A DNA stretch of 40,514 nt from a virus: IMG/VR virus record IMGVR_UViG_3300046007_001204, positions 1 to 40,514 of that record; one strand, written 5' to 3'. The first letter of the stretch is position 1. Each line of letters starts with the position of its first letter. A model generated the notes under the pieces. The model did no database searches and had not been told where the DNA came from. It worked only from the letters and a program-made list of their open reading frames with translations. Below are positions 1,675 to 10,973 of this stretch, piece by piece. A program made the position numbers and the translations under genes.

Positions 1675-3432
1675 ATGTACGACATTAAAAAAGGCGGCGG
1701 TCTTCGTAGCCTCGCTCCCATCGTCGATCAGACTGAACAATTTTTGGAAAAACAGAACGTACCAAAGGAGCAGGTCGTACCGTTCCTCATGTCGCTTGGT
1801 CGTCCAGAACTTGCTGGCGCTGTAGCAGATCGTATGCGGCTCGACACCGCAGCCGAAAACATGAAGATGATGCAGCAAGGCAAATCTGCGCCTCCCACAG
1901 TGGTGCAAGAAAACCGTGCGCAAGCGCAGGGTTTGATGGGGATGATGCCGCAGCGGAATCCTATGATGCCGAATCAACCGATGCCGCAGATGGCCGGTGG
2001 CGGGATCGTGGCATTTTCAAACGGCAGTACAGTGCGGTTGCCCAAGTCGGAAGTGTTCTCCGACGCAGGCTTTGAAGAGTACATCCGCAACAACTTCCCA
2101 AACTGGGAGCAGTTGCCCGAAGATCAGAAGCGCGAAGTGGCCCGCGCCATGAAGGATCAGTATCTCTCGGCGCAGGGCCGAGCGATGCAGCGTGAAGCTA
2201 TTGATCCTAGGATGCAGCGTGGTTATGTAGCCCCGGCTCCTGCTGCGGCCCCCGTGGCTGGCCTACCTGCTGCACTTCCTGCAGCGCCTGCTCCGACTGC
2301 GCCCCCCGCAGCGGCCCCGACTGGGTTCGTTGCACCTGACTCGCAAGGTGCGTTGTTTGATCAAATGATGCAGTCGGCTAGCCGCCCGACTCCGCCTGCG
2401 GCTCCCGTTGTACCCCCTGTTACTCAACCTGCGGCTGCGGCGCGACGGCCCACTACTCCGCCTGCGGCTCCTGCGCCGGGTATCGCACTGCCTGATGTCA
2501 ATGCCCCCCAAACCCTTGAACAGGTTACGGCTGCTCGTATTGCAGGCGACAAGGCTGCGGGTATTACTGGCGATGCGACCAAGGCTTACGAAGACTTCCT
2601 CAAAGCCCGCACGGCAGAAATTCCTGAAGAGAAAAAGGCTGCGTATAAAAATGCTTGGATGATGGTCGGCGCTCGGTTGCTGGGCAGCCGTAGTCCGTTC
2701 TTTGCTCAGGCATTGGGCGAGGCGGCTGAGGCTGGCATTACCGGCTACCAGAAGGATCTGAAGGAACTCAAAACCGCCGAGCAGGCATTGCGTCAGGCTG
2801 ACATGCAGCTTCGCATGAACAAGGAAGCCATTGCCCGTGGCGACCTCCGTGCGGATCAGGCTGAAGTGCGGCGTCAGGAAGACAACTACACGAACAAGCA
2901 GTTCAAGTTGTTTGAGCTTCAAACGAACGCCCGTGACAAGGCGCTTGATCGTGCGATGGATCTTCGTATTGCTCAACTCAGAAACGTCACAGGCGGCGAC
3001 TCACGCATTACTCGTTTGCAGGGACTGTATGAAGCCACGCAAGAGGAAGGTCTGACCCCGCAACAGAGGCAGGCGCGTCAGGATAAACTTGCTGAACAGA
3101 TCGAGATGGACCGCAGGTTTACGGCGGCGACCACTTCAGGTGGTTACTCTGCGGATATCCGGTCGGAGACAGAGCGTAAGGAACTTATACAGAAAGTGCG
3201 AGACAGCTTTATTTACCGTAACCAGAAGATGATTGCTGATAACTCTCGCCGTCCTGAGAATGAGCGTGCTGCGGCACGTGCAGAAATGGAGCGGTTGGAA
3301 CGTGAAGCCACGGGCGGTATGCCTTCTCCAGACTACGCTCCCCGTAGCCAGAACATCAGCGGTGGGCCATACTCGGACAAGTCGGACGATGAAATAAAGC
3401 GTCAGCTTAACGAGCAATTTGGGATCAGGTAA
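1675..3432 (+). CDS. Putative internal virion protein, Pro/Ala-rich with helical C-terminal half
   Basis: This 585-residue protein starts at an ATG 3 bases after the previous stop, with GGGAGG just upstream as the ribosome site. Residues 1-90 are helical. A MAGGGIVAF motif follows at about residues 104-112; I associate this motif with structural proteins of aquatic phages, from memory only. Residues about 183-275 are a Pro/Ala low-complexity linker. The remainder is charged and helical, with long heptad-like Gln/Arg/Glu stretches (about residues 290-520). Its stop overlaps the next start by one base (TAATG), so translation is coupled to the giant polyvalent gene. No catalytic motif is visible. 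A virion-internal role is inferred from position and composition; the exact function is unknown. Confidence 0.75.
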   Translation: MYDIKKGGGLRSLAPIVDQTEQFLEKQNVPKEQVVPFLMSLGRPELAGAVADRMRLDTAAENMKMMQQGKSAPPTVVQENRAQAQGLMGMMPQRNPMMPNQPMPQMAGGGIVAFSNGSTVRLPKSEVFSDAGFEEYIRNNFPNWEQLPEDQKREVARAMKDQYLSAQGRAMQREAIDPRMQRGYVAPAPAAAPVAGLPAALPAAPAPTAPPAAAPTGFVAPDSQGALFDQMMQSASRPTPPAAPVVPPVTQPAAAARRPTTPPAAPAPGIALPDVNAPQTLEQVTAARIAGDKAAGITGDATKAYEDFLKARTAEIPEEKKAAYKNAWMMVGARLLGSRSPFFAQALGEAAEAGITGYQKDLKELKTAEQALRQADMQLRMNKEAIARGDLRADQAEVRRQEDNYTNKQFKLFELQTNARDKALDRAMDLRIAQLRNVTGGDSRITRLQGLYEATQEEGLTPQQRQARQDKLAEQIEMDRRFTAATTSGGYSADIRSETERKELIQKVRDSFIYRNQKMIADNSRRPENERAAARAEMERLEREATGGMPSPDYAPRSQNISGGPYSDKSDDEIKRQLNEQFGIR

Positions 3433-6400
3433 TGGCTGATTACCAGCTTCTTCTTGAAGCGGACAGGAGAGGTCTCCTCTCCCCGCAGCAGTCTGCGCTT
3501 TTGCGTGAGGCCCAGCGGCGTGGTTTGCTTGAAGAAGAGCAACCGGCTCAGCCAGTCGTGCCGGAACCTAAGCCCGAAGATCAGTCTTTCTTGCGTGAAG
3601 TAGCTGACGTTCCTCTTAAAGTAGGAACTGGTATCGCTCAGGGCATTCGCTTCATTACGGATGCGTTTGGCGCAGATAACCCCGTATCGCAGAACATACG
3701 TGGCGTTGAAGGCTATCTTGAAGGGCTGCTCAGTGCACAGTCCAAGCAGGATAGTCAGGAAGTTGCTCGTATCATGCAGGAAGCTGAGGACAAGGGTGTA
3801 GGTGCCCAAGTCGTCGCTGCGCTTGATGCGTTCACCAAAGCCCCGGTTGATATCCTGTCGCAGGCGGTTGGCACGGCGTTGCCAACTGTGGTCGGAGGTT
3901 TGTCTGCAGGATTACTTCGTGGTGCAGCGGGCGCTGTAGCGAAAAAGGCTGCTGCTCCGGCTATCGGTGCCGTGACTGGCGCAGGCGTCATCAAGAGCAC
4001 AATTTACGATGAGACCAAACAAGCCTTGATGCAGGAGGGTTTGGACGAAGCGGAAGCTGAACGTGCTGCTATCCAAGCCCAAGAGTACGGTGGCAAAAAC
4101 CTTGATCAGATCATCCTTGGCACGGCACTAGGTGCTGTTGCTGCGGGTACCGGCTTTGAAAAGGCATTGGCAGGAAAGATCCTCTCGCGCACTGCTGCGA
4201 AGGAAGGTGCTGAAGAAGTCGCCAAGCAAGGTGTTGTCCGTGGTGCCATAACTGAAGCCGTACCTGAAGCGGCTCAGGCTGGACAAGAACAACTCGCTGC
4301 TAACATTGCTCTGCAGAGAGAAGGCTTCGATGTTCCGACCACCCGTGGCGTGGCTGGTGCGGCAGCGTTGGAAGGTATCGCTGGCGGTATCTTGGGTGGC
4401 GGTCTCGGCGCTGTATCTGGCCGACCCGAAGTTGAAGTTGCTCCGGAGACCGAGCTACCGCCGCCCCCGCCAGAAGCGCCTGCTCCGCAGTTGCCGCCCG
4501 AAGTCACGCAAAATGCTCGTGACTACATGGCCCGTGTTGATGAGGGCGAAGAAAAGTTTAATTGGATGCGTGGCCGCAAACTGCTCAAAGAGATGGGCGT
4601 TGCAGTCCCGCCTGAAGCAAAAGCTGCCGATGTCAGACAAATTCTGGACAGCACACTTGGAAGAGAGCCTGCTGCACCCAAAGAAGGACAACTTGGAGTT
4701 GAAACTCTCATTGGTGGGGTCTTCGCTCCACCAAAGGTTGCTCAGGAGGTTTCACGTGGAGTATCGACAAGTCCTGCAGAAACTGTCGCTGGAACAGTTG
4801 GAAGAGGCGCTACTGTGCCTGCACCGGGACCAACTCCCGGAGAACCCGCAGTTACAGAGCCTGACCTCACAGGACTGGGGGGCGCTCCATTACCTACTGT
4901 GTCTGCTGAACGCGGAGAAGCGGCAGGCGAGCCTGCACTGACGGAAGACGGGCAGCGGTTCCTTTCCGAGTACGGTCAGTTTGAAACTTACGATCTTGAT
5001 GACGGTGCCAAGTACACCGGAGCGTTGAACCCCAAGACTGGCTTGATGGAAGGCAAGGGCGTCTACGCATACCCAGACGGCACCATTTACGAAGGCGAGT
5101 TTGTTAAGTCCAAGTTCCAAGGCCAAGGCAGGCGCACTCTTCCTTCCGGCGAAATGTACGAAGGCGAGTTCAAAAACGACAAGTACAACGGTTTTGGCAC
5201 GCTGAATTTTGCTGACGGCTCGTATTACAAAGGCAACTTTAAGAACGACAAGTTCAGCGGTGAAGGTGAGTTCGTTGATGCTGATGGCACGACGATGCGC
5301 GGCATGTTCAAAGCTGGCAAGTTCTTGGGCGAACCTGAGACCGTGCCTGTCGAGGAAGCACTGACTCCTCCGGACGACACCCCGCAGGCGGCTGATGTTG
5401 CTACACCTGCTCAGACTCCAACTACGACGCAGGTTGCGGGGCCAAGGCTTTCCGAAGATGCGACCGACGAAGATATCGCCCGGTACGTCGAAGAAAAGAA
5501 CAACATGCCGCCTGCTGCAGAAGTTCAGTTGCAGGAAGGTGATGCGGTTCGCGTGGGCAACATGCCCGGTACGATCATTGGTGTGGAAGGCGATTACATC
5601 AAGTTCCGACCCGTCAATGCCCGCCGTGAGAAGGCATATCAGAGGGTTCCTGCCAGCATGGTTGTGTTTGAATCACGACCGTCTGATGACCTTGTATCTT
5701 TGTCCAAACGTATTGAAGAACAGTTCGGGGAAGAAGCTGGCGAACTTAATATAGACAAAGATGCCATGATCCCGCTTGTCGGTGCCAACATGTACGGCTC
5801 CAACATTGCAGATGTGGCAGTGAAGGAAATGCTGCAGAACTCTTTTGACGCTGTGAAAGAAAGTGTCAAGAAAGGGCAGACTGATGTTGGTGATATCAAT
5901 GTCTCAATCAATGACAACGACCGCACGCTGATTGTTGAAGATGACGGCGTTGGTATGACGCCGGAAATCATTCGCAAAGCGTTCTTCACCATCGGTGGTT
6001 CCGCCAAAGAACTTGATCCCGGCGAGACTAGCGGCGGTCTTGGCATGGCCAAGATGGGCGTCCTGATGGGTGCCGAACGTATCAAGATTGACACTGTTCG
6101 TGACGGTATCCGCACGACTATCGATGCCACTCGTGATGAAATTGCTCAGAGCAACTTCAAGATCCGCAAGCAACCTGCTCCCAAGGACGAGCACGGTACG
6201 AAGATTACGCTCAAAATACCCGAGACTTATACCGATACGCTTACGGGGGATGCAAAAAGAGTTTGGTTCCCTTATGGATCATCAGGCATCAGTATCTTTG
6301 GCAAGCCTTTGGTTGGTCCTGCCAAGGTCACGTTCAACGACACTGCGAGTGGTGAAAAGGAAGAACTTCCAATTGGCGTCAATTTTGATACAAAGGAGAT

Positions 6401-9400
6401 GCCAAAGCTCACGACTGCCGATACGGCGTGGGGCACCTTGGAAGTTTATATGGGTACGAAGCGTAAGAAGTACCCTACACACAATATCCTTTCCAGTGGC
6501 ATCTGGCAGTTTGAGAATCCGTTTAAGCTTAGCGGAAATGAAAAAATCCCGTACGACATCGTTGTAAACGTAAAGTCCAAGGTTAGAGCCAAGGACGTTA
6601 ATTACCCGTTTGAAAACAGTCGAGAAAGGTTCAAGCCTCGAGTTGCAAAAGATATAGAGGCTTTGCAGGGTTACTTGCAGCGTATCGCTCGTGGCGAAGA
6701 AGCCAAGGAACTGCAACAGTCTTTCAAGGATCTTGTGCAGATGCCTCGTGTTGAGGCTGGCGAAGACTTAAAAGATACAAGCAAGAAACTGCAGAAAGTA
6801 TTTGATAGGCGCAGAGACGAAGCGCCAAAAAAACTTGCCGTTCCCAAAACTGAAGAAAAAATTGTTATCAGTGATGATGGTGTCAAAGACACGCTTGGCA
6901 AGATTCTTGTGCCGCCGAAGACTAGCGACGTTATGCGTGAGCAGTCTTTCAAGGCTGACAAAGCTCCTCCTTCAATGGAGGAGTTCAAGATTGTCATGGA
7001 ACAGGATCCAAAGCTGCCTGTATTCCATAACAATACAAACGTAGATTACATCGAAGTTGGCGAACCGTACGGCGACCCGCGTCAGTTCTTTGCTGAACTT
7101 GGCACAATTGTTGTTGAGATGAAAGAGGCTTTGGGAGACAGCGGCCTATATGGATTTCCGCGATCTTATGATGTCCTCAAACCCGAGAACTTGTTTTTTG
7201 GCGGCATCTCAATCGACAGAGGGTACGGCGGCATCCATTTAAAAGAAGTGCCGTATAAGGCCATTTACATCAACCCGTTCTATGAATGGGGTGCTGAAAC
7301 GCTGTTTGGTATTCGTGCCAACATGTATGAGACCATCACGCATGAACTCGCCCACACCGGAAACATGGATCACGGTGTCGGGCACAACCAAGAAATGATC
7401 AAAGTCCGTCAGTATCTTGCTGACCAAGGACTTGAAGACTACTTCCGCGATGCAATATTGAAGGTTCTGGCTAAACACGAGTCTGTGTTTACTGCCATGA
7501 AGGAGGCATATGGACGCTCAACGACAGCAAACGTTGCAAAGTCTCTTGAGGAGTACAACAAAGACTCCTCCGCAGCATCAGCTAGAGGAGATAAAGCAGG
7601 CGATAAAGGTAAACCACGGGCTGTATCAGCAGGAAAACGACGCGGAGGGGATGGCACTGTACCGCCCGCTGCTCCAAGCGGCGAACCAAGCGAAGTCGGT
7701 GGAGGAGTTGGTAAGGCTGGTAAGCGGGTAAAGAAGAAGGCCGAACCCGCAAAGGTCAAACCAAAGGAGACGCCTGAAGAATTCAAGCAACGGCGTGTCA
7801 GCACCCTTAATAACAAGTTCAACAAGAACGGACTGATTGAGCGTACCCGCAAGTATTTGTGGGGTGAAGACGTTGGTTCGCGCCGCGTTGATCTGTACGA
7901 GCGTGCCGTCAAGTTCTTCCAGAACGAACTGCGTCCGTTGAAGCGGCTGGAACAGGATCTTCGCCGTGCCAAACAACTTATTGTCGGCGTCCCCGGCTTC
8001 AACAATGCTTATAGCCTGATCACTGCTGCCCAAGACAAGGCAGCGTTCTACGCATCAACAGTCCTGAAGCGTCCGATGGATGCTGCGTACAAGGCTATCG
8101 ATAATTACGCCAAGATGCGTGGACTTGATACAAACAAAGCTTTGGAGGAACTTGATCGTCTGCGTATTGTCCTGCACGAACCGGAACGCCGTGAAGTTAT
8201 GTTCATGCTGAATGCTCCGCTCAGCACCAAGCGCCGACAGTTTATCGGTGCCAACGGCAAGAAGATGCGTATCAGCCCTGCGGAAATCCGGCAGGAGATC
8301 CTGAAGCAGTTGATCAAGCCGACTGATCTTGCCAGCAACGGTACGGCCAAGGCGTTGGGTGACACCCTGCGTAAGCTTGTCATGGACAAGGCTAACCTTG
8401 ATCCGTTGGGCGACAGCCCGATTGCGCAGCCGAACAAGCCGACTTCAACCGATATCAACAGCGCCACGTACAACGTATTGGGTGGCTACTCACCTGAGTT
8501 TATCAATCAGTTGAAGGAAGACTTTGCCCGCATTGGACCGAAGGCACAGGCTGCAGCCGAAGCCGCGTTGAAAGCGGTAAACGATGTTCAGGAAGAAACC
8601 AAAAACCTGAACCGTAAGGCGAAGTATTGGTCGCAGCCGGTTGATAACATCGTTGCGTTCTACAACTTCCAGAACTACGCCCCGCTCAAGGGTCGTCCTG
8701 AAAAGGGTGAGGCTGCCAAACTTGACCCGAATGATCGCCGTGTAAGCGGTGAGTTTGCTGAGGCTGCGCAGGCAATGGAAGGCCGTCAGTCTGAGGCAGA
8801 GAACTCAATCCTGCAGTCGTTCTCGGATGCCTACTACGCCGCTGCCCGTGCGGGCCGTGAGGGTGTAACGGACGCCGTTAAGAACATGATCGACCAAGGC
8901 CACATCAAGGGTAAGCCGGTTGGCAAGATCACGATGGCAGATCGGTATCTGAACCGTGATTTCAGCTTTGCTCCGTACAAAGGCGAGAACAAGATCTTCC
9001 ATTACGACAACGATGGCAACATCGAGGTCTATCAGATCGCGCCGCAAGATTACGCCATTCTCCGTGCCATTCGCCGTCCGTATCAGGAGTCGCACTGGGC
9101 AACGAGGGCAGGTAACGCTATCACAGGCTTCTTTGGCCAGATGCACACCCGGTTCAACCCGTCGTTTGCTCCGCTGAACTTCCCCCGTGACATCATCACC
9201 AACACCCTTAACATTGCGGGCGAGTACGGTGCAGGCAGTGCTCGTGAATACTTTGTTGATGCGTTGCTCCGCAACGTCATGCGCGGCGGCCTTCACAAGT
9301 CCGGCAGGGTGTCGGTTTTGATTGAGAAGGGTGACATTGCCAAACTGCGTGAACTGGCTAAGAAAGATCCGTTCATCAATGACACGTTGGAATGGATTGA

Positions 9401-10973
9401 GCGCGGTGGTCGCACGGCATATCAACAGTCCTATTCCATCGGTGCGCAGGCAGAGGCTCTGGACAACAGTTTGAATGATCGCGGCGTTGTTGCTGCGTCC
9501 AAGCGCGGTCTGCAGCAAGTTGTTTTAGCGATGGACATTTACAACGACGCCTTTGAGTTCACCAACCGCGTTGCTGCCTACGCCATGTCACGTGACAAGA
9601 CTCAGGCACAGATGAAGCAGGCGTTTGTGGAGAAGAACAAGCGTCAACCTAACGCCCAAGAGATGGAGCAGATTGAAGAAGCAGCCAAGATTGAAGGCGC
9701 TACGTTTGCCAAGAACCTTGCCAACTTCCGGCTTGTGGGTGACGCGGGCCGTGAGGCTGGCGCTCTCTTTATGTTTTTCCGTACGGCTGCTACAGGTGCG
9801 GTGCGTGCCATCGACACCATCATGCCTGCGTTGGTTAGCTATGAGACGGCGCTCTCCAAGGCTCCGGAGTCGGTTCGCAAAAACCCTGAAGCTGCTAAAC
9901 AGTTCCGTCAGACGTACGAAGCTCAGAAGAACCGCGCACGTTGGGCTATGTTTATCACGGCTGCAGCCGGTGCTTGGCTATACGAGATGGCGTTGGCCGG
10001 TGCCGACGACGATGATCAAGGCCGCAACCGTGTGGCCACGGATGATATGGCGCGTTGGACGCGCTACGCCCGCCTGCCTGTCCTTGGTGAGGACACGTTC
10101 CTGCAGATTCCGTGGGGCTTCGGTATCTCGGCGTTCGGTGCGTTTGGCGCTCAGATGGCATCGTTGGCTCGGGGCAACGTGGCAGCAAAGGACGTTGCAG
10201 CTAACACGATCAACATCGGGTTTGACTCGTTCCTACCTATCCCCAAATCAAACATCAACGTATTCGACAACTTCACTGGGTTCCTTGTGGACTCCGTGAC
10301 GCCTTCGGCGCTCCGTCCGTTCGTTGAATACGCCATGAACACCGACAACCTCGGCAACGAGATTTACAACAGTCGGCAGAGTCGCTACAGCGATGTGTAC
10401 ACAGGCGGCGTGAACATCCCCGAGTTCTACAAGAAACTCGCCAAGGACTACTTTGAAATGACGGGCTACGAAGTCAGCCCCAACACGATTTACTTCTGGA
10501 CGAGCAACTACGCTGATGCTCTCGGTCGCGTGGCTACCTCTGCGTATGATCTGCGTATGTTCGCTGCTAACGAGCGCGAGTTCCGTAGCGTTGACGATCT
10601 CGATAAAGTTGTCCCGTTCATCGACAGCTTCATTGGCACCAAGTCCAACTACGATGCTCGGCAGTACGCCAGCGTTGAGGAGCAGGTTCAGAAGAAGCAG
10701 CGATTGCTCAACACACTGAAGTTCCGGCCTGATGATTACGCTGCGTACATTGAGAAGAACCCGAACGATGAAGAGATCGTGGACTTCTACGAACGAGCCA
10801 TTCAAGGCGACCTGAAGAAACTGCGTGAACAGGCAAACTTCGTGCGTAATACGTCAGAACTATCCACGCAGCAGAAGCGGGATCTTCTGAAAGACAACAC
10901 CCGTATGCAGAATCTTGCAAAGCGTAACTTGATCGACTCGTTCCAAATCTACTACGGCATCGAGCCTAAGTAA
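3432..10973 (+). CDS. Giant phage polyvalent protein: MORN repeats, GHKL ATPase, zincin motif, LPD38-like region
   Basis: At 2513 residues this is the largest gene in the window. In order it shows: Gly/Ala-rich hydrophobic stretches at about 145-190, 228-250 and 305-330, which could contact membrane; a disordered linker at about 440-505; four to five MORN units with a 23-residue period at about 526-634; and a GHKL (HSP90/MutL-type) ATPase with N-box E799/N803/D806, DDGVGM at 837-842 and SGGLGMAKMG at 867-876. A metallopeptidase motif HELAH follows at 1304-1308 with possible third ligand H1314. A second basic Gly/Pro linker lies at about 1360-1440. A long helical region resembling phage LPD38 polyvalent domains comes last (FNPSFAPLNFPRD near 1908; FMFFRTAATGA near 2113). 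Proteins of this kind are thought to be packaged and injected to act early in the host; that role is inferred here. The start overlaps the previous stop (TAATG). The 3' end overlaps a convergent gene by 8 bp. Confidence 0.9.
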   Translation: MADYQLLLEADRRGLLSPQQSALLREAQRRGLLEEEQPAQPVVPEPKPEDQSFLREVADVPLKVGTGIAQGIRFITDAFGADNPVSQNIRGVEGYLEGLLSAQSKQDSQEVARIMQEAEDKGVGAQVVAALDAFTKAPVDILSQAVGTALPTVVGGLSAGLLRGAAGAVAKKAAAPAIGAVTGAGVIKSTIYDETKQALMQEGLDEAEAERAAIQAQEYGGKNLDQIILGTALGAVAAGTGFEKALAGKILSRTAAKEGAEEVAKQGVVRGAITEAVPEAAQAGQEQLAANIALQREGFDVPTTRGVAGAAALEGIAGGILGGGLGAVSGRPEVEVAPETELPPPPPEAPAPQLPPEVTQNARDYMARVDEGEEKFNWMRGRKLLKEMGVAVPPEAKAADVRQILDSTLGREPAAPKEGQLGVETLIGGVFAPPKVAQEVSRGVSTSPAETVAGTVGRGATVPAPGPTPGEPAVTEPDLTGLGGAPLPTVSAERGEAAGEPALTEDGQRFLSEYGQFETYDLDDGAKYTGALNPKTGLMEGKGVYAYPDGTIYEGEFVKSKFQGQGRRTLPSGEMYEGEFKNDKYNGFGTLNFADGSYYKGNFKNDKFSGEGEFVDADGTTMRGMFKAGKFLGEPETVPVEEALTPPDDTPQAADVATPAQTPTTTQVAGPRLSEDATDEDIARYVEEKNNMPPAAEVQLQEGDAVRVGNMPGTIIGVEGDYIKFRPVNARREKAYQRVPASMVVFESRPSDDLVSLSKRIEEQFGEEAGELNIDKDAMIPLVGANMYGSNIADVAVKEMLQNSFDAVKESVKKGQTDVGDINVSINDNDRTLIVEDDGVGMTPEIIRKAFFTIGGSAKELDPGETSGGLGMAKMGVLMGAERIKIDTVRDGIRTTIDATRDEIAQSNFKIRKQPAPKDEHGTKITLKIPETYTDTLTGDAKRVWFPYGSSGISIFGKPLVGPAKVTFNDTASGEKEELPIGVNFDTKEMPKLTTADTAWGTLEVYMGTKRKKYPTHNILSSGIWQFENPFKLSGNEKIPYDIVVNVKSKVRAKDVNYPFENSRERFKPRVAKDIEALQGYLQRIARGEEAKELQQSFKDLVQMPRVEAGEDLKDTSKKLQKVFDRRRDEAPKKLAVPKTEEKIVISDDGVKDTLGKILVPPKTSDVMREQSFKADKAPPSMEEFKIVMEQDPKLPVFHNNTNVDYIEVGEPYGDPRQFFAELGTIVVEMKEALGDSGLYGFPRSYDVLKPENLFFGGISIDRGYGGIHLKEVPYKAIYINPFYEWGAETLFGIRANMYETITHELAHTGNMDHGVGHNQEMIKVRQYLADQGLEDYFRDAILKVLAKHESVFTAMKEAYGRSTTANVAKSLEEYNKDSSAASARGDKAGDKGKPRAVSAGKRRGGDGTVPPAAPSGEPSEVGGGVGKAGKRVKKKAEPAKVKPKETPEEFKQRRVSTLNNKFNKNGLIERTRKYLWGEDVGSRRVDLYERAVKFFQNELRPLKRLEQDLRRAKQLIVGVPGFNNAYSLITAAQDKAAFYASTVLKRPMDAAYKAIDNYAKMRGLDTNKALEELDRLRIVLHEPERREVMFMLNAPLSTKRRQFIGANGKKMRISPAEIRQEILKQLIKPTDLASNGTAKALGDTLRKLVMDKANLDPLGDSPIAQPNKPTSTDINSATYNVLGGYSPEFINQLKEDFARIGPKAQAAAEAALKAVNDVQEETKNLNRKAKYWSQPVDNIVAFYNFQNYAPLKGRPEKGEAAKLDPNDRRVSGEFAEAAQAMEGRQSEAENSILQSFSDAYYAAARAGREGVTDAVKNMIDQGHIKGKPVGKITMADRYLNRDFSFAPYKGENKIFHYDNDGNIEVYQIAPQDYAILRAIRRPYQESHWATRAGNAITGFFGQMHTRFNPSFAPLNFPRDIITNTLNIAGEYGAGSAREYFVDALLRNVMRGGLHKSGRVSVLIEKGDIAKLRELAKKDPFINDTLEWIERGGRTAYQQSYSIGAQAEALDNSLNDRGVVAASKRGLQQVVLAMDIYNDAFEFTNRVAAYAMSRDKTQAQMKQAFVEKNKRQPNAQEMEQIEEAAKIEGATFAKNLANFRLVGDAGREAGALFMFFRTAATGAVRAIDTIMPALVSYETALSKAPESVRKNPEAAKQFRQTYEAQKNRARWAMFITAAAGAWLYEMALAGADDDDQGRNRVATDDMARWTRYARLPVLGEDTFLQIPWGFGISAFGAFGAQMASLARGNVAAKDVAANTINIGFDSFLPIPKSNINVFDNFTGFLVDSVTPSALRPFVEYAMNTDNLGNEIYNSRQSRYSDVYTGGVNIPEFYKKLAKDYFEMTGYEVSPNTIYFWTSNYADALGRVATSAYDLRMFAANEREFRSVDDLDKVVPFIDSFIGTKSNYDARQYASVEEQVQKKQRLLNTLKFRPDDYAAYIEKNPNDEEIVDFYERAIQGDLKKLREQANFVRNTSELSTQQKRDLLKDNTRMQNLAKRNLIDSFQIYYGIEPK
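4756..4941 (+). CDS. Nested small gene in the +1 frame of the polyvalent gene (61 aa)
   Basis: A GTG codon at 4756 is preceded by a full AGGAGG Shine-Dalgarno site (4744-4749) with ideal 6-base spacing. It opens a 61-residue frame ending in TGA. The product begins with M/V-EYRQVLQKLSLEQLEEALL, has a DWGALHYLLCLL segment and ends ASLH. Its composition is that of a normal compact helical protein, unlike the Arg/Ser/Leu-rich translation upstream in the same frame. In the main frame the same bases encode a Pro/Gly/Ala/Thr linker (residues 442-503 of the polyvalent protein) with no clear structure. This asymmetry, plus the ribosome site, argues for a genuine overprinted gene. Function is unknown. 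Homology or expression evidence is not available to me. Confidence 0.6.
   Translation: MEYRQVLQKLSLEQLEEALLCLHRDQLPENPQLQSLTSQDWGALHYLLCLLNAEKRQASLH
7510..7731 (+). CDS. Second nested small gene in the +1 frame of the polyvalent gene (73 aa)
   Basis: ATG at 7510 follows AAGGAGG (7500-7506) with a short 3-base gap and opens 73 codons ending in TAA. The product starts MDAQRQQTLQSLL, carries HQLEEIKQAI and a segment GMALYRPLLQAANQAKSVEE, and looks like a soluble two- or three-helix protein. The overlapped main frame here encodes a Gly/Lys/Ser/Pro-rich linker (polyvalent residues about 1360-1434) with no apparent fold. Like the other nested gene, it is in the +1 frame, sits in a linker between folded modules and has a strong ribosome site. 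Function is unknown. It could instead be the remnant of an intergenic gene captured when neighbouring frames fused. Confidence 0.6.
   Translation: MDAQRQQTLQSLLRSTTKTPPQHQLEEIKQAIKVNHGLYQQENDAEGMALYRPLLQAANQAKSVEELVRLVSG

Follow-up and report, generated by a model that had tools for sequence, protein, structure and literature searches.

Two putative small genes nested out of frame in the linkers of a giant polyvalent-type phage protein

Results

Organization of the locus

The window analysed here is a stretch of viral DNA of 40,514 nucleotides (IMG/VR record IMGVR_UViG_3300046007_001204, positions 1 to 40,514). It carries a giant gene whose product combines MORN repeats, a histidine kinase-type ATPase (HATPase) domain, an HExxH motif and an LPD38 domain, that is, several unrelated domains including one of the LPD type, as in polyvalent proteins. 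Two small open reading frames, ORF1 and ORF2, lie within the giant gene (Table 1). Upstream of the giant gene, at positions 1-1671, is a gene that consists mostly of diverged Gln/Ala/Leu-rich repeats (NQQAALQA-like).

Table 1. Features of the giant gene and of the putative genes nested within it
Feature	Position	Strand	Remarks
Giant polyvalent-type protein	3432..10973	+	2513 aa; host frame of ORF1 and ORF2
N-terminal module (A7) of giant	3570..4571	+	In a relative, similar to the N-terminal part of phrog_2206, the N4-like virion RNA polymerase family; weak in the window (E=0.028)
Shine-Dalgarno AGGAGG of ORF1	4744..4749	+	SD-like site in 38/39 homologues
Nested ORF1 (putative)	4756..4941	+	61 aa, GTG start, +1 frame; homologues in +1 of 39 giants
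MORN repeats of giant	5157..5351	+	Window only; absent in L009
RIIA-like HATPase + HExxH module	5532..7502	+	Only in the window and L009 giants
HELAH (HExxH) metallopeptidase-like motif	7341..7355	+	From sequence; 5' of ORF2
TGA stop closing the +1 frame	7498..7500	+	Three codons 5' of the ORF2 ATG
Shine-Dalgarno-like AAGGAGG of ORF2	7500..7506	+	3 nt from ATG; identical in L009
Nested ORF2 (putative)	7510..7731	+	73 aa, ATG, +1 frame of giant; L009 homologue, substitution pattern, coding score, pLDDT 92
LPD38 domain	10047..10571	+	Conserved C-terminal region of giant

Over its ATPase domain, the middle module of the giant matches RIIA (phrog_2979, E=2e-5), and it aligns with rIIA-annotated proteins at 24-25% identity; no free-standing relative of this RIIA-like/HExxH module was found among the giant loci, the phage collection or the genome contigs. 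In related giants, phrog_2206 was matched over N-terminal residues 27-431 (L021, 5717-13036) and over middle residues 804-1034 (L036, 6362-12988). Because of this similarity in the relatives, packaging of the giant into the virion and its ejection are plausible, and the match suggests a virion ejection protein related to the N4 virion RNA polymerase. Searches of the phage collection with the giant gave no match in HTVC027P or DSL-LC04, two terminase relatives, and the stretches of these phages that were examined held no significant match to the nested genes. Gene gp86 of HTVC027P, a small gene 3' of a large structural gene, was considered as a relative of the nested genes and did not match them. 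Distant relatives of the LPD38 region, the giants of a Traversvirus (Sepvirinae) phage and of a Vibrio phage, carry no comparable nested ORF.

ORF2 has its own start signals and overlaps both a conserved module end and a linker

ORF2 is contained entirely within the giant ORF, on the same strand and in a different frame. The first-pass annotation had reported a 73-codon +1-frame ORF preceded by AAGGAGG at this place, and the frame, the ATG and the AAGGAGG are all present. The other nested frame counted there, ORF1, was confirmed as well, with its GTG start and AGGAGG. The arrangement AAGGAGG-N3-ATG, in which the spacing is short, together with the in-frame TGA upstream, is common to the window and to a related locus, L009. 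As this TGA shuts the +1 frame, ATG7510 is the earliest start available to ORF2.

Across ORF2, 88% of the residues in the giant frame are G, A, P, S, T, K, E, Q, D, R or N. ORF2 begins within the final conserved codons of the RIIA-like/HExxH module and then enters a linker rich in Gly, Ala, Pro and Lys. When the window is compared with L009, the first half of the overlap is about equally conserved in the two frames (27/36 identical residues in the giant frame, 26/36 in the nested frame), whereas identity in the second half is 18/35 in the giant frame and 25/35 in the nested frame. The earlier placement of ORF2 over a disordered linker thus holds for its second half, which is plain linker, but not for its first 35 or so codons, where the giant residues are conserved.

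Substitutions between the window and L009 avoid the giant wobble position

Selection on ORF2 was examined with two independent sequences, the window and L009. A further contig, 3300046009_002271, is 100% identical to the window over the parts compared and therefore adds no information on ORF2. The L009 homologue (2867-3082) again lies in the +1 frame of a giant, which is 61% identical to that of the window at its C-terminus, and the two ORF2 products share 71-72% identity (51/71 residues, over 71 codons that align without gaps or stops). ORF2 was not detected in giants outside the window/L009 clade among the relatives searched; it shares these two giants with the RIIA-like module, and no further giant was found with either.

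The 45 substitutions over ORF2 split 20/13/12 on giant codon positions 1/2/3, as compared with 33/18/111 in the 200 giant codons directly upstream (chi-square p=2.5e-6); the giant wobble position, favoured in the rest of the gene, is thus avoided over ORF2. Its share of the differences is 0.32 in both 40-residue bins of ORF2, the lowest values along the gene, and ranges from 0.36 to 0.81 in all other bins. Amino-acid changes in the nested frame number 20, where 33.8±2.4 would be expected under selection on the giant frame only, with the upstream position pattern, and 28.7±2.6 under uniform placement, that is, with no selection. These values point to purifying selection in the nested frame of ORF2, for which two independent sequences are available, and the same holds for ORF1, for which there are 39 loci. 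Some of the nested identity in the first half could be passive, since the giant frame is conserved over those codons too.

Coding scores set both ORFs apart from other +1 frames of the giant

A codon-composition coding score trained on the other genes of the window gave values of 0.25 for ORF1 and 0.21 for ORF2. The 220 remaining +1-frame windows of the giant all scored lower (mean -0.45, sd 0.17, maximum -0.03), and among the sense alternate-frame ORFs of at least 40 aa in the window genes tested, ORF1 and ORF2 ranked first and second. When the score was trained separately on each of some 40 giants, the window and L009 copies of ORF2 were the strongest outliers other than ORF1. Within the overlap, coding composition points to the giant frame in parts of the first half and to the nested frame in part of the second.

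ORF1 is kept in the same frame across many giants

Scanning with an alignment of the C-terminal region of the giant (A1) as query yielded 48 loci, and ORF1 was identified in 39 loci, every one in the +1 frame of the giant and together forming 29 clusters at 90% amino-acid identity. They start with ATG in 31 cases and with GTG in eight. Substitutions in close pairs fall on nested codon positions 1/2/3 as 8/2/22 (L030/L032) and, in another pair, as 5/1/13, so that the giant wobble, which corresponds to nested position 2, is the most conserved site; in nearly all pairs, identity is higher in the nested frame than in the giant frame. On this larger sample, the evidence for ORF1 is stronger still than that for ORF2.

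Among full-length giants of the C-terminal set, ORF1 is absent only from the lineage of L049, L050, L053 and L055, and since this lineage sits nested in the tree, a single loss is the simplest reading. These four giants have the same C-terminus, and their linker is still Thr-rich but holds no gene-like +1 frame. A wider set of 78 loci, gathered with the N-terminal module, gave ORF1 matches in more than one third of the giants, each inside the giant and in +1; ORF1 is so either patchy in this set or diverged beyond detection. Relatives with the same giant but no nested frame, which the first-pass annotation had named as evidence against its reading, do exist, namely for ORF2 outside the window/L009 clade and for ORF1 in the L049 lineage; a lack of sequence conservation in the nested frames, which it had named as well, is seen for neither ORF.

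Predicted structures and homology of the nested products

The AlphaFold model of ORF2 comprises four helices with a mean pLDDT of 92.2, a value obtained from two sequences and uncalibrated against matched +1-frame peptides, and that of ORF1 has a mean pLDDT of 87.5 (34 sequences). Neither product had a significant Pfam or PHROG match, and fold searches with the two models returned no match at E<=0.001. By these searches ORF1 and ORF2 are orphan families. Standard annotation suppresses fully nested ORFs, which would account for families that lack such matches, even though ORF1 is conserved across dozens of phages.

Discussion

Expression of ORF2

We consider ORF2 to be, very probably, a real nested gene that is initiated internally at ATG7510, with its second half read as linker by the ribosomes that translate the giant. 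We infer its translation from the frame, the initiation signals, the conservation in the same frame and the selection seen at codon level. Ribosomes would start internally on the mRNA of the giant, guided by AAGGAGG, and would produce a soluble protein of about 73 residues with four predicted helices. Ribosomes translating the giant, one base out of register, would read the second half of the overlap as a flexible linker rich in Gly, Ala, Pro and Lys, joining the RIIA-like/HExxH module to the conserved C-terminal region. Such a linker tolerates almost any hydrophilic sequence, so that a single DNA stretch could encode both proteins. ORF1 would be expressed in the same mode.

An open +1 frame could also arise passively over a low-complexity linker, with the Shine-Dalgarno-like sequence a coincidence of MKEA codons and conservation following the giant frame. 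The giant gene indeed has many long open +1 stretches, the longest of 229 codons, further alternate-frame ORFs also carry SD-like sequences, and the giant frame is itself conserved in the first half of the overlap. We nevertheless regard a passive origin of ORF2 as improbable: neither the positions of the substitutions nor the count of nested changes fits selection on the giant alone, the coding score of ORF2 exceeds every background window, and Asp plus Glu make up 11-12% of ORF2 versus roughly 0-5% of most chance SD-bearing ORFs of giants; the confident ORF2 model (pLDDT 92) points the same way. Less credible still is programmed frameshifting from the giant, which would yield a truncated giant with an ORF2 tail and involve no internal initiation. 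It would agree with the +1 position of ORF2 and with the conserved AAGGAGG at the point of entry, a sequence that can also serve as a frameshift stimulator. However, a +1 frameshift product would have an open upstream frame with a slippery site, and in both phages a TGA lies three codons ahead of ATG7510 and confines any shift to the 9 nt right at the start; in the homologues of ORF1, moreover, the open length upstream varies from 0 to 168 codons, while the SD and the start are constant.

Origin of the nested genes

That the linkers of this protein host genes, as the first-pass annotation had proposed, is supported by a very probable ORF2, by an ORF1 kept in +1 of 39 giants and by further candidates elsewhere. 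Its account of their origin fared less well. In that account, separate genes were joined into one frame that ran through the small genes between them, a history compatible with real nested genes. ORF2 starts before the conserved sequence of the RIIA-like module has ended, an overlap of the kind that start codons show in phage operons, the frame that looks coding changes along the overlap, and the nested genes lie near module joints, which are sites of recombination. Two near-identical phages, L033 (560-1050) and L034 (7590-8080), are diverged before and through ORF1 and identical just past its stop; this switch is a recombination joint adjoining ORF1. In L039 (7065-7221; compared with L036, 8029), an in-frame insertion of 183 bp (61 codons) directly follows the ORF1 stop, encodes a charged, coiled-coil-like segment and has a short direct repeat at its flanks. 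On the other hand, the separate modules that the annotation proposed to look for were not recovered by scans with the C-terminal (48 loci), N-terminal (78 loci) or middle RIIA/HExxH regions: about 120 giant-bearing loci, the phage collection and the genome contigs yielded no split giant, free module or free nested gene. In every locus read from the 78-locus scan, contig ends excepted, the N-terminal module is the start of one continuous giant; free-standing copies were found neither of ORF2 (phage collection, genome contigs, giant loci) nor of ORF1 (contigs of the retrieved giant loci). Furthermore, ORF1 keeps its +1 position in the giant across its clade, so that any fusion must be older than everything sampled. 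Taken as a whole, fusion seems unlikely.

We give not quite an even chance to overprinting, whereby the ancestor of the window and L009 would have gained ORF2 as a de novo gene, in the +1 frame of DNA that encoded the end of the RIIA-like module and its linker; this too is compatible with a real nested gene. ORF2 is an orphan confined to one clade, internal overprinted genes usually occupy the +1 frame (PMC8227390), and the host frame is prone to disorder. Against such a birth, a four-helix model with a pLDDT of 92, albeit uncalibrated, shows more order than is usual in a young overprinted protein, and in part of its second half ORF2 codes more strongly in the nested than in the giant frame. 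As ORF2 is restricted to the window/L009 clade, it looks clade-specific and tied to its module and not like the fossil of an ancestral operon; its occurrence only alongside the RIIA-like ATPase/HExxH module fits an ORF2 that came in with the module or arose on top of it, which is at least as likely as fusion.

As to function, the co-occurrence with the RIIA-like module makes a helical partner encoded in cis the most economical guess. From its position and its presence with the module in two phages, the ORF2 product could tentatively be an assembly or holding factor, or a co-delivered helper, of that module, although we consider this rather doubtful.

Comparison with known nested genes

In the Rz/Rz1 spanin system, a small gene is embedded out of frame in another phage gene. 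ORF1 and ORF2 are likewise small and out of frame within a phage gene, but Rz1 is a lipoprotein of the lysis cassette whereas they sit in a virion-type giant gene; inspection by eye found no signal peptide or lipobox in either, and an Rz1-type spanin was discarded. In phiX174, the tiny genome is limited in size, and gene D encodes a protein that is itself folded and conserved. Here, in contrast, the host frame is a low-complexity linker and the genome is that of a much larger tailed phage (a 40.5 kb fragment). What is shared with gene E, which lies in gene D, is a fully internal position on the same strand in another frame (PMC8227390).

Among phages, the closest precedent is ShiLan, where an HNH gene is inserted out of frame in a methylase and was overlooked because the host frame has no stops (PMC11855218). 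There too, a gene occupies another frame of a phage gene, and the host frame is open and predicted to form a harmless loop. ORF1 and ORF2 differ from it in product, SD signals, descent and location in linkers of a giant protein. The ShiLan gene is a mobile homing endonuclease, patchy at one site, with a GTG start and suggested leaderless initiation, whereas ORF1 and ORF2 are predicted small helical proteins with an SD and no nuclease domain, and ORF1 is inherited by descent. A homing insertion of the ShiLan type was rejected here: Pfam, PHROG and fold searches revealed no HNH or other homing endonuclease domain, and the distribution is one of descent with one loss for ORF1 in the C-terminal tree, if patchier in the wider N-module set, and of a single clade for ORF2.

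Overlapping genes, fully internal ones included, are classical, and disorder in one frame has been proposed to ease the constraint (PMC8227390). For polyvalent proteins with LPD38 (Iyer et al. 2017, PMC5512222) and for the N4-like virion RNA polymerase, the likeness lies in the giant itself; a term search of PMC5512222 gave no instance of 'overlap' and two of 'nested', both in one passage about a protein hairpin and not about genes. In a limited search of titles and abstracts, no paper describing nested genes in polyvalent proteins came up. In the case described here it is the small nested protein that is ordered and selected and the giant frame that is a bland linker, contrary to how overprinting is usually pictured. 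Out-of-frame genes are thereby predicted in the linkers of giant phage proteins, and it becomes testable whether such overlaps evolve when a linker is run through a small gene that already existed or when a gene arises within the linker.

Further candidates in the linkers of giants

It is conceivable, though we hold it only as a working idea that may well prove wrong, that the inter-module linkers of giants are dual-coded slots, a regular architecture for gene storage in which unrelated small +1 genes sit at module joints and move with the modules. ORF1 would then be ancient and ORF2 clade-specific, with L087/L091, L074/L079, L119 and others as further candidates. A possible third nested family, unrelated to ORF1 and ORF2, is formed by +1-frame ORFs in the giants of L087 (12442-12699) and L091 (9917-10165), which are 54-56% identical. 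Their substitutions split 18/28/32 by nested position and both frames look constrained; as this pattern does not tell the two frames apart, they are candidates only. Additional +1 linker ORFs of gene-like composition are present in L074 (9430-9579) and L079 (9505-9654), in L075 (12301-12456) and L083 (13072-13305), in L119 (15850-16155) and in L107 (9901-10128); being near-identical copies or single cases, they are unproven.
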